DNA of 64,000 bases, from NCBI GenBank assembly GCA_016125555.1, contig WGLN01000015.1:44125-108124 (forward strand), given 5' to 3'. The notes under the pieces were generated by a model. It had not been told where the DNA came from, ran no database searches, and saw nothing but the letters and a program-made list of their open reading frames with translations. Positions 21,707-29,555 of this stretch are shown here, piece by piece. Position 1 is the first letter of the stretch. The number at the start of each line of letters is the position of its first letter. Source of the DNA: Porphyrobacter sp. GTDB taxonomy: Bacteria > Pseudomonadota > Alphaproteobacteria > Sphingomonadales > Sphingomonadaceae. A program made the position numbers and the translations under genes.

Positions 21707-22438
21707 ATGCATAGGCGCGCTTGGTCGAAAATCGTGATGGTCGGCGCGCTGGCGCTCGCGCTGGCGGGATGCGGTGATGCGGCGGACGACGCGACCGTGC
21801 CGCCCGCATCGGGCGCGGCGCTCGGCTCGGGCGAGGACGCGCCGCCGCCGATCCCGGTGATGGGCCCGGAACGCCGCATCACCGCCTTCGGCGACAGCCT
21901 GTTCGCCGGCTACGGGCTCGATCCCGAGCAGAGCTATCCCGCGCGGCTCGAAGCGGCGCTGAGGGCGAAAGGCATCAACGCGCGCATCGCCAATGCCGGG
22001 GTGTCGGGCGATACCACGGCAGCGGGTCTCCAGCGGCTCGACTTCACGCTCGATGCGCAAACCGAAAAGCCCGATCTGTTCATTCTGGAGCTGGGCGGCA
22101 ACGACCTGCTGCGCGGCCTTTCGCCCGAAGAGACCAGGGCCAATATCGACAAGATGCTGGACACCCTCGACGCGCGCGGCATCCCGGTGCTGCTGATGGG
22201 GATGCGCAGCCCCCCGAATTACGGGCCCGAATACCAGCAGCGCTTCGATGCGATCTACCGCGAACTTGCCAAGAAGCACGGGGCGGCGCTGATCCCCTTC
22301 TGGCTCGAGTCCATCTACCGCGAACCCGCGCTGTTCCAGGACGATCGCATCCACCCGACCGAACAGGGGGTCGAGAAGCTGGTGGATTCGACCATCGACG
22401 AGGTCGCCGCGGCGCTGCCCAAGACGGCGGCGCGCTAG
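21707..22438 (+). CDS. Arylesterase, GDSL/SGNH family (TesA-like)
   Basis: ITAFGDSLFAGYGL block I, LELGGNDLLRG, DDRIHPTEQGVEKL; lipoprotein-like N-terminus. Confidence 0.92.
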   Translation: MHRRAWSKIVMVGALALALAGCGDAADDATVPPASGAALGSGEDAPPPIPVMGPERRITAFGDSLFAGYGLDPEQSYPARLEAALRAKGINARIANAGVSGDTTAAGLQRLDFTLDAQTEKPDLFILELGGNDLLRGLSPEETRANIDKMLDTLDARGIPVLLMGMRSPPNYGPEYQQRFDAIYRELAKKHGAALIPFWLESIYREPALFQDDRIHPTEQGVEKLVDSTIDEVAAALPKTAAR

Positions 22439-23523
22439 AGGCGCTCGACCTTCCCGCCGCTCACCCGCCAGATCGCCGCCTCCTCGCGGATTGCGGCGAA
22501 GGGGGCGAGCTCGGTCCCGGTCATCCACACCTGCGCGCGGCCCTGCCGCAGCCGGGCGAACAGCTCGGTGCGGCGCACCGGGTCGAGATGCGCTGCGACC
22601 TCGTCGAGCAGCAGCACGCTGGGGCGTCCGGCGGCGGCAAGGATGCCGTGGGCCAGCGTGATCGCGATCAGCATCGCCTTCTGCTCGCCGGTCGAGCAGG
22701 AAGCGGCGGGCTGGCGGTTGCTCGCCATCACCACTTCAAGCTCGTCGCGCTGCGGACCCGACAGGGCGCGGCCCGCCGTCCGGTCGCGCGGGCGCTGGCG
22801 GGCGAGTTCGGCGCGCAACGCCGTCTCGTCGGTCGGGCCGCCGGGACGGTAGGAGAGGGCGGGACGCGCGAAGGGCTCCGGGGGAAGCGCCGATAGCTCG
22901 TCGGTCAGGCGCGCCACGAGTTCGGCGCGGTTCGCCGCCACCGCCGCGCCGTGCTCGGCCGCCTGCGCCTCGACCGCATCCATCCAGCGCGCCTCGCCGC
23001 CATGTTCGAGCAGCCGCCCGCGTTCACGCAAGGCCGCCTCGAGCGCGTTGACCCGCCGCGCATGATCGGGCGCGAGGGCGAGCGCCATTCGGTCCATGAA
23101 GCGCCGCCGTGCGCCCGCGCTGTCGGTGAACAGCCCGTCCATCGCCGGGGTGAGCCATGACAGGGCCAGCCATTCGGCGAGGCTCGCCGCGCTTGCCGGA
23201 GCGCCGTTGACCCGCACCAGCCGGCGCCCCGGCTGGCCCGCCTCGGTATAGGTGCCGAGCCGTGCGGAAACGGTGCCCGCCTCGGTCAGGCTCGCGCCGA
23301 TCGCGAAGGGCAGGGGGGCATCGCCGGGCGCAGGCCGGCGCGCGAGATCGGCGAGGTTCGCACGCCTGAGGCCGCGCCCGGGGCCGAGCAGCGAAAGCGC
23401 TTCGAGCAGGTTGGTCTTGCCCGCCCCGTTCTCGCCCACCAGCAGGTTGAAATGCGCTGTCTCGGCCAGCTGCGTCGCCGCGTGCTTGCGGAAGTTCTCG
23501 AGGCTGATGCGGCTGAGACCCAT
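22435..23523 (-). CDS. recF: DNA replication/repair protein RecF
   Basis: MGLSRISLENFRKHAATQL; LVGENGAGKTNLLEALSLLGPGRGLR; SVLLLDEVAAHLDPVRR. Confidence 0.95.
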   Translation of the reverse strand: MGLSRISLENFRKHAATQLAETAHFNLLVGENGAGKTNLLEALSLLGPGRGLRRANLADLARRPAPGDAPLPFAIGASLTEAGTVSARLGTYTEAGQPGRRLVRVNGAPASAASLAEWLALSWLTPAMDGLFTDSAGARRRFMDRMALALAPDHARRVNALEAALRERGRLLEHGGEARWMDAVEAQAAEHGAAVAANRAELVARLTDELSALPPEPFARPALSYRPGGPTDETALRAELARQRPRDRTAGRALSGPQRDELEVVMASNRQPAASCSTGEQKAMLIAITLAHGILAAAGRPSVLLLDEVAAHLDPVRRTELFARLRQGRAQVWMTGTELAPFAAIREEAAIWRVSGGKVERL

Positions 23524-23593
23524 GGCGCCTGCGCGGTAGCGGGAGGGGCGCGACTTGGCCAGTGCGGGCATCGCGGATCGAGCAATCCCAACC

Positions 23594-23612
23594 CTTGGGA
23601 ATATTTCCCAAG
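23594..23612. promoter_or_regulatory. Perfect 19-bp palindrome, candidate upstream activator site
   Basis: CTTGGGAA-TAT-TTCCCAAG, centred about 85 bp upstream of the -24 element at 23687. Confidence 0.5.
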
Positions 23613-23685
23613 CTTTCGGGATGGTGAACGAAGCGTAGCCAAGGCGAAAGTTGAAAAACGGCGGAAAACCGCGCTTTTTCGAGTT

Positions 23686-23701
23686 TGGCACGCCTCCTGC
23701 A
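23686..23701 (+). promoter_or_regulatory. Candidate sigma-54 (-24/-12) promoter
   Basis: TGGCACGCCTCCTGCA: GG-N10-GC spacing, close to the TGGCAC-N5-TTGCA consensus. Confidence 0.65.
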
Positions 23702-23764
23702 ATCTCTTTTGCGTCCCCGGGATGGTCCCGAAGGACAGTGAGAAAAACCAAAGGAGATACCCCA

Positions 23765-23878
23765 ATGTTCGCCATCGACGCTTCGAACCGCCTCTTCGCC
23801 GCCGCCTTCTCGGTCGTCCTTTCGGCCGCGTTCCTGGCCTACGCGATCCTTCCCGCCAGCCCCGGCCTCGTTGCCTGA
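23765..23878 (+). CDS. 37-aa single-TM peptide, tandem copy 1
   Basis: MFAIDASNRLFAAAFSVVLSAAFLAYAILPASPGLVA; AAGGAG RBS 9 bp upstream; homologous to the next ORF. Confidence 0.75.
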   Translation: MFAIDASNRLFAAAFSVVLSAAFLAYAILPASPGLVA

Positions 23879-23920: not shown

Positions 23921-24034
23921 ATGTTCGGCTCTGACCAATCCGCCCGCCTCGCTTCCGCCGCCTTCGCGGTGGTCCTGACGATCGCGAGCTTCGCCTATGC
24001 GATCCTGCCCGCAAGCCTCGGCCTCGCGGCGTAA
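23921..24034 (+). CDS. 37-aa single-TM peptide, tandem copy 2
   Basis: MFGSDQSARLASAAFAVVLTIASFAYAILPASLGLAA; 24 of 37 residues identical to copy 1 with no gaps. Confidence 0.75.
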   Translation: MFGSDQSARLASAAFAVVLTIASFAYAILPASLGLAA

Positions 24035-24066: not shown

Positions 24067-24282
24067 ATGAACAACGTGACACGCAATTCCGGCGGCAAGC
24101 CGCCCCGCACAGGCTTCCGCCTCGACAAGACCCACGCCAAGGTCTTCGGCGTCTGCGCCGGGATTGCCGACTACACGGGCTTTGATGCAATGTTGGTGCG
24201 GATCGGCTTCGTGGTCGGCGCGATCGCCAGCTTCGGCACGGCGGCGCTGATCTACCTCGCGATCGCGTTGATCGCCGATTGA
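24067..24282 (+). CDS. PspC domain protein
   Basis: FRLDKTHAKVFGVCAGIADYTGFDAMLVRIGFVVGAIASFGTAALIYLAIALI matches the PspC domain pattern. Confidence 0.92.
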   Translation: MNNVTRNSGGKPPRTGFRLDKTHAKVFGVCAGIADYTGFDAMLVRIGFVVGAIASFGTAALIYLAIALIAD

Positions 24283-24345
24283 GTGCAGCGCCAGACAAGC
24301 GGTTCCCGGTTTATCGGGCCGCTGCACCTGATTGAACGAACCGGG

Positions 24346-24374
24346 AAGGGGCCTCATCGGCCCCTTTCTTTTTC
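24346..24374 (+). terminator. Rho-independent terminator after pspC-like gene
   Basis: AAGGGGCC-tcatc-GGCCCCTT followed by tctttttc. Confidence 0.88.
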
Positions 24375-25155
24375 AAATGGCGGAAATGCCGCCATCCAGC
24401 TTGAGCTCTGCGCCGGTCATGAAGCGGCTTTCGTCGCTCGCCAGATAGACCACCGCATTGGCGATGTCGTTGGGCTCGCCAACGAACTTCAAGGGGATCT
24501 GGCGCGCGAGCTTTTCCATCAGCACCTCCTTGTCGAGCGCATGGGCGCGCGCCGTCCCGTCGAGGATCGGGGTGTCGACAAAGGTCGGATGGACCGAGTT
24601 GCAGCGGATGTTCATGCCCTTTTTGGCGCAGTGCAGCGCGATCGACTTCGACAGCATCCACACCGCCGCCTTGGAAGAATTGTAGGCGGGCATCGTGTCG
24701 CTGGCGATCAGCCCGGCGATGGACGAGATGTTGATGATCGAGCCCGGTGCGTGTTCGCGCATCAGCGGCAGCGCCTTCTGGCAGCCGTGGAAGATCGAAT
24801 TGACGTTGATGTCGAAGCAGCGCTGCCAGTCCTCGAACTTGCAGGTCTCGATATTGCCCGCAACCCCGATCCCGGCATTGTTGACGAGCACGCTGAGCCC
24901 GCCGAGGTGCTCGCGCGCGGCATCGACCGCGGCTTCCCACTGCGCGGGATCGGTGACGTCGTGAGCGATGCTGAAGGCCGTGCCGTCGCCCATCTCGGCA
25001 TTGATGATCGCCGCGGTTTCCGCTGCGCCTTCACCGTTGATGTCGGTCGCCAGCACCCGCGCGCCTTCCTGCGCCAGACGGATGCAATGCGCGCGGCCCA
25101 GGCCCTGCGCGCCGCCGGTCACCAAGGCCATCTTGCCCGCTACACGTCCTGCCAT
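24373..25155 (-). CDS. SDR family oxidoreductase
   Basis: KMALVTGGAQGLGRAHCIRLAQEG, VNNAGIG, YNSSKAAVWML, FMTGAELKLDGG. Confidence 0.95.
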   Translation of the reverse strand: MAGRVAGKMALVTGGAQGLGRAHCIRLAQEGARVLATDINGEGAAETAAIINAEMGDGTAFSIAHDVTDPAQWEAAVDAAREHLGGLSVLVNNAGIGVAGNIETCKFEDWQRCFDINVNSIFHGCQKALPLMREHAPGSIINISSIAGLIASDTMPAYNSSKAAVWMLSKSIALHCAKKGMNIRCNSVHPTFVDTPILDGTARAHALDKEVLMEKLARQIPLKFVGEPNDIANAVVYLASDESRFMTGAELKLDGGISAI

Positions 25156-29138: not shown

Positions 29139-29152
29139 CGGCGCGCGCTCAC

Positions 29153-29180
29153 TTCACATTAAGGCTGCAATCGCTATATC
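29153..29180 (+). promoter_or_regulatory. Candidate sigma-70-type promoter of ssrA
   Basis: TTCACA - 16 bp - TATATC just upstream of the tmRNA acceptor piece. Confidence 0.5.
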
Positions 29181-29186
29181 GGACGG

Positions 29187-29555
29187 TGCCGGTTTCGGCC
29201 GGCTATGGCGATAAATTGCTGCGTGCAATAGATGCAACGGACCCGGGGGCAGTACCCGGCGGCTCCACCAGAAGCGGCGGCCCCTTCAAAGGGCGCCGCA
29301 CCTCCTGACGGGGCCGAACCAGGATCGACGTGTGTTGAAAAGCGTGGTTTTCGCCCGGGCTGAGTAACCCGTTAAAGGCTCAAAACCCATAAGTGCCAAC
29401 GACAACGAAGCACTTGCTCTCGCTGCGTAATGTGACGGCCTAACGGCCTGAATCTACAAAGCCTAGAGCACGGTTCGGACCGAACCGGGTAACAGAATCG
29501 GAAACCGGGGGCCCGGGGGAGCCTAGCAACAGAATCCCCCACCTTACCCGGAGAT
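29187..29555 (+). ncRNA. ssrA: Two-piece (permuted) tmRNA; ends approximate
   Basis: Acceptor piece ends GGACCCGGGGGCAGTACCCGGCGGCTCCACCA (29270); coding piece begins GGGGCCGAACCAGGATCGACGTG (29310); GGGGCCG pairs with CGGCTCC; tag GCC AAC GAC AAC GAA GCA CTT GCT CTC GCT GCG TAA (29395-29430) = ANDNEALALAA. Confidence 0.95.

Follow-up and report, generated by a model that had tools for sequence, protein, structure and literature searches.

The window analysed here, a single stretch of 64 kb, comes from a 3.07 Mb genome that is 99.99% complete, and contains a small operon reading away from recF, in which two short membrane-peptide genes are followed by a gene for a short PspC-domain protein (Table 1). 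Among the 29 other orthologous loci, from related genomes, 27 have recF beside the operon. In 27/29 loci the promoter is followed by one to three peptides of 35-52 aa, each with a single hydrophobic span and a ribosome-binding site, and no family in either Pfam or NCBIfam was matched by these small peptides. The PspC product scores 48.5 bits against the full-length PspC equivalog, below its cut-off of 104 bits, and is, judged by its sequence, a minimal PspC-domain protein and not a full-length PspC; its nearest named relatives by similarity come from Erythrobacter and Qipengyuania. The products of the operon are probably effectors or tuners of the envelope-stress response that work in the inner membrane. 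We found no published description of an operon combining such peptides with a short PspC in the literature searched, which was mostly non-subscription.

The operon appears to end at a hairpin that was not flagged in a terminator pattern scan, and no sigma-70 promoter was found for either recF or the operon. Elsewhere in the window, at 29149-29506 on the + strand, lies a two-piece tmRNA gene of the alphaproteobacterial type.

Table 1. Features of the intergenic region, the operon and its neighbour, in window positions
Feature	Position	Strand	Basis
recF	22435..23523	-	RecF/RecN/SMC domain; divergent neighbour, outside operon
Probable second UAS, of degenerate sequence, exactly 20 bp upstream of main UAS	23575..23591	+	conservation peak -98..-95
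Main PspF-type UAS (predicted), CTTGGGAATATTTCCCAAG	23594..23612	.	TTGG-N9-CCAA, start 91 bp upstream of -24 element
Possible third half-site (TTCGG), 20 bp downstream of main UAS	23615..23631	+	weak, inferred
Conserved promoter-proximal element, consensus AAAATGGCGGAATTCCGCCGTTTTTC	23654..23680	+	conservation island, 6-32 bp upstream of TGGCAC
Sigma-54 -24/-12 promoter (predicted), TGGCACGCCTCCTGCA	23686..23701	+	TGGCAC...TGC kept in aligned orthologues; rpoN in genome
First small peptide (37 aa, a single membrane span predicted)	23765..23878	+	AGGAG ribosome site ~23752
Second small peptide, 37 aa, paralogue of first	23921..24034	+	
Short PspC, 71 aa, PspC membrane domain alone	24067..24282	+	Pfam PspC 2.7e-15
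Terminator hairpin then T-rich run, operon end	24343..24369	+	fold -22.7 kcal/mol for 24318-24380, z -2.47

A promoter and a palindrome held at fixed spacing

A first-pass annotation of this DNA had proposed a sigma-54 promoter about 65 bp upstream of the first peptide ORF. The element is present with the expected GG-N10-GC arrangement and a single mismatch to TGGCAC-N5-TTGCA, so that it agrees with the sigma-54 consensus (GG-N10-GC, TGGCAC...TTGCA), and its -12 end lies 63 bp before the ATG. The mismatching base is also variable among the orthologues (0.28 bits at that column) and hence is not a promoter defect. Taken on its own a -24/-12 match of this quality is at chance level: the window has 10 matches at ≤2 mismatches where 14.6 are expected, and at ≤1 mismatch the genome has 21, compared with 29 when the control pattern, its reverse, is used.

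The palindrome upstream is perfect, as had been claimed, and is the sole perfect copy in the genome; within 3 mismatches, only 0.09 matches are expected in the window. Its TTGG start is counted from the T of TGGCAC. The earlier estimate of about 85 bp between palindrome and promoter holds as a rough centre-to-promoter distance but not edge to edge, where the gap is 73 bp, and its placement near -110 agrees with a centre at approximately -109 from an expected transcription start at ~23712, a start that is itself inferred. When the window was scanned with a matrix derived from the orthologues, the palindrome was the best match at 19.4-20.9 bits, compared with 10.9 for the next. A scan of the whole genome for further pairs of palindrome and promoter (TTGG-N9-CCAA-N(50-80)-TGGCAC) returned exactly two, with none for the control, and the only one besides the present pair is the pspA promoter beside pspF. 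The TTGG-N9-CCAA site of that pspF-pspA gap is found in this genome and in many relatives.

Phylogenetic footprinting, which the first-pass annotation had suggested as a check, reveals that the motif is retained upstream of the orthologues at a fixed spacing. The footprint set comprised 30 orthologous loci including that of our own genome, which are related by descent and so are not independent observations, and 29 of these 30 carry a TGGCAC-type -24/-12 element with TTGG-N9-CCAA 90-92 bp upstream (26 at ≤1 mismatch and three at 2). Anchored on the promoter, column conservation forms islands at -98..-95, -92..-74, -71..-68 and -32..-6 and at the promoter itself, while the upstream flank (-160..-116) has diverged to background with approximately 29% pairwise identity. 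In a second set of loci, about half of them from congeners, the UAS was found at 90-91 bp in 19/19 testable loci, one further locus having no promoter in reach, and in a public genome collection the spacing was exactly 91 in eight of nine loci (Erythrobacter, Qipengyuania, Tsuneonella, Altererythrobacter and others). One-mismatch -24/-12 matches should arise by chance many times per genome, and the promoter and palindrome could in principle be chance matches in intergenic DNA, but conservation peaks exactly at both elements (UAS columns average 1.04 bits against 0.19 in the upstream flank, over 29 genomes) and the second locus set agrees throughout; the footprint refutes chance, and we regard this explanation as having a negligible probability.

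The palindrome also lies 71-89 bp upstream of the start codon of recF, the usual neighbour of the operon, and might be read as a recF operator whose position relative to the promoter is incidental. This is very improbable given that the spacing between palindrome and sigma-54 promoter is fixed at 90-92 bp, that the same motif occurs at pspA, far from recF, and that recF of genomes lacking PspF does not have the motif.

The palindrome does not stand entirely alone. Of the probable degenerate UAS upstream, conservation extends just to the right half, CCAA (23588-23591), and at the possible third half-site downstream there is a T at -71 in 23/29 and a G at -68 in 26/29 genomes. From these columns the palindrome looks like the strongest member of an array of half-sites spaced by 20 bp (approximately -111, -91 and -71). 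The pspA promoter of this genome has two matrix sites, again 20 bp apart, at -91 and -71; its upstream site places the palindrome in exact register with it, and the half-site array is in register with both.

The element between the palindrome and the promoter (-32..-6) is strongly conserved and also precedes an unrelated sigma-54 small RNA promoter of the genus that has a different activator motif, so that it probably belongs to the sigma-54 promoters of this lineage in general and not to the PspF site. Covariation of the two arms of its dyad was considered and rejected, as complementarity was 0.60 compared with 0.58 when arms were shuffled between sequences, leaving only a symmetric consensus. 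No IHF consensus (≤2 mismatches) was found in the promoter region of the window; such a site, lying between enhancer and promoter as at E. coli pspA, is an accessory and non-defining feature, and DNA looping here may consequently depend on a different bender or on curvature, or may need no such aid.

PspF, rpoN and the other sigma-54 activators of the genome

The first-pass annotation had predicted that the operon is controlled by RpoN and a PspF-like activator encoded elsewhere. Both are encoded: rpoN is identified by a Sigma54_DBD match of 218 bits (G000:C4:186670-187155), and a PspF orthologue lies on another contig (G000:C8:50144-51142), scoring 476.3 bits against the NCBIfam equivalog TIGR02974 (cut-off 443.55). 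This PspF is 52% identical to that of E. coli, and the C-terminal helix-turn-helix LGLTYxQxR is common to both. Its gene is divergent from a psp operon with genes for a small peptide, PspA, PspB, a PspC of 124 aa and additional small membrane proteins. Within that operon (L132 1194-4601, on G000:C8) the peptide that precedes pspA has a single span, and the proteins after pspC are several, small and membrane-anchored. Another genome (G108, locus L040) has two PspC-domain genes in tandem near its psp operon, without the promoter described here.

Across the 115 near-complete genomes of the family, PspF and PspC always occur together or are both missing (108 with both, seven with neither; Fisher p 2e-11), although PspC in this count is any PspC, that of the psp operon included, so that the co-occurrence ties the Psp system together and is less specific to this operon. 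All seven PspF-less genomes retain rpoN, and neither the promoter nor the UAS was found beside their recF genes (recF being split between contigs in one).

Seven proteins in the genome have a strong match to the sigma-54-activator domain, and the six other than PspF, with roles read from translated ORFs, raise the question of whether the promoter is served by a different enhancer-binding protein, such as NtrC/NtrX, PrsR, DctD, a flagellar-type activator or the response regulator near alanine dehydrogenase. We consider this very unlikely, since the same site is present in the pspF-pspA gap of this genome and many relatives as well as at both PspF-regulated promoters of E. coli, the module is missing from the seven genomes that have kept rpoN and have no PspF, and the sigma-54 small RNA promoter of the genus carries a different upstream motif.

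That small RNA is a side observation of this work. On the minus strand at ~890-740 of locus L133 (G000:C15:124800-126200) lies a sigma-54 promoter, TGGCACGCGCCATGCA, and after it a conserved RNA, ~115 nt long and containing hairpins and a terminator, which is present in 20 of the 41 genomes searched within the genus. The RNA matched no Rfam family at its gathering score and is probably an undescribed sigma-54-dependent small RNA. At the small RNA loci (L165-L176) the sequence TGTCGG...CTTTACA is conserved 82 to 65 bp upstream of the -24 element in place of the PspF site, pointing to another activator, for which PrsR is a candidate. Membership of this promoter in the PspF regulon was considered and rejected, as the PspF site is absent.

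A probable PspF-controlled operon for small membrane proteins

The presence of rpoN and pspF, the conserved motif at fixed spacing, and a UAS resembling those upstream of pspA and pspG together strongly support the predicted control by RpoN and PspF. We have high confidence in reading 23594-23701 as the enhancer and sigma-54 promoter through which PspF controls the operon, making the latter a second, orphan PspF target with a placement like that of pspG, and the region is very probably a switch that turns on the small membrane-protein operon upon damage to the cell envelope, with the activator and DNA signal known from the classic phage-shock system of E. coli. In unstressed cells PspA would keep PspF inactive, and damage to the inner membrane would release it. 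PspF would then bind TTGG-N9-CCAA, aided by the neighbouring half-sites 20 bp away, loop to sigma-54 RNA polymerase at the -24/-12 element and open the promoter by ATP hydrolysis, giving a single transcript that would encode both small membrane peptides as well as the short PspC and would end at the terminator hairpin.

More broadly, and with a modest preference over other possibilities, we propose that pspA is not the only target of PspF in the Erythrobacter group and related genera, where the activator would also control an orphan operon, present lineage-wide, for tandem micropeptides with one span each and a minimal PspC; this operon would form an effector branch of the phage-shock response that has not been described. 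We propose also that the -32..-6 element looks like a lineage-specific extension of the sigma-54 promoter. The PspF site of an alphaproteobacterial family is in this way defined from sequence evidence alone and is essentially the E. coli site; a conserved second operon would be added to the PspF regulon, and the known control extended to this undescribed operon of the Erythrobacter group. Since no family is annotated for the small peptides and they are easily missed, their promoter offers a direct hint at a function in envelope stress.

Comparison with known sigma-54 promoters

A UAS matrix built from 28 relatives, with our own genome left out, was applied blind to E. coli loci. On 4.5 kb of E. 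coli its top two matches both fell in the pspF-pspA gap, 20 bp apart, and on 7 kb around pspG the top match was directly upstream of pspG, in keeping with the two UASs at pspA and one at pspG in that organism (PMC3709507). In E. coli, PspF-based activation of the pspA promoter has been reported to depend on helical phase (PMC6710252). The UAS spacings of -71, -81, -91 and -101, which are offset from one another by multiples of 10 bp, agree with this, with -91 at the present promoter, -91/-71 at pspA of the same genome and -101/-81 at E. coli pspA.

In the literature searched PspF is named as the Psp regulator in Enterobacteriaceae only, with pspG as the sole other E. coli target (PMC9239133), and nothing specific was found on PspF in sphingomonads in the mostly non-subscription literature searched. 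A 2024 survey of Psp systems describes duplicated pspB and Alphaproteobacteria with altered PspC (PMC11237479), and a term search of it gave no mention of this operon.

The PEP-CTERM/PrsR promoters (PMC1569441) share with the present one a sigma-54 element and a conserved activator motif upstream, in proteobacteria, and a PrsR-like regulator is encoded in this genome (L002). They differ in the activator, the genes and the signal, the site described here being of the PspF type.

Like the E. coli pspA promoter, which drives pspABCDE with sigma-54, PspF and two UASs, the promoter described here has a -24/-12 element and an orthologous activator, and the 17-bp form of the UAS is common to both (GTTAGTGTAATTCGCTAAC and CATGATGAAATTCGCCACT at E. 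coli pspA, CTTGGGAATATTTCCCAAG here), as is the 20-bp step between sites. The UAS positions differ, with -101 and -81 at E. coli pspA as opposed to a strong site at -91 and weak flanking half-sites here, and E. coli pspA has an IHF consensus whereas this promoter has none. Unlike the pspA promoter it does not lie beside pspF and has other genes downstream. With the E. coli pspG promoter, an orphan PspF target, it shares a single main UAS and a sigma-54 promoter far from pspF, and at both loci the product is a small membrane protein, although pspG is one gene and the operon here encodes small peptides together with a short PspC.
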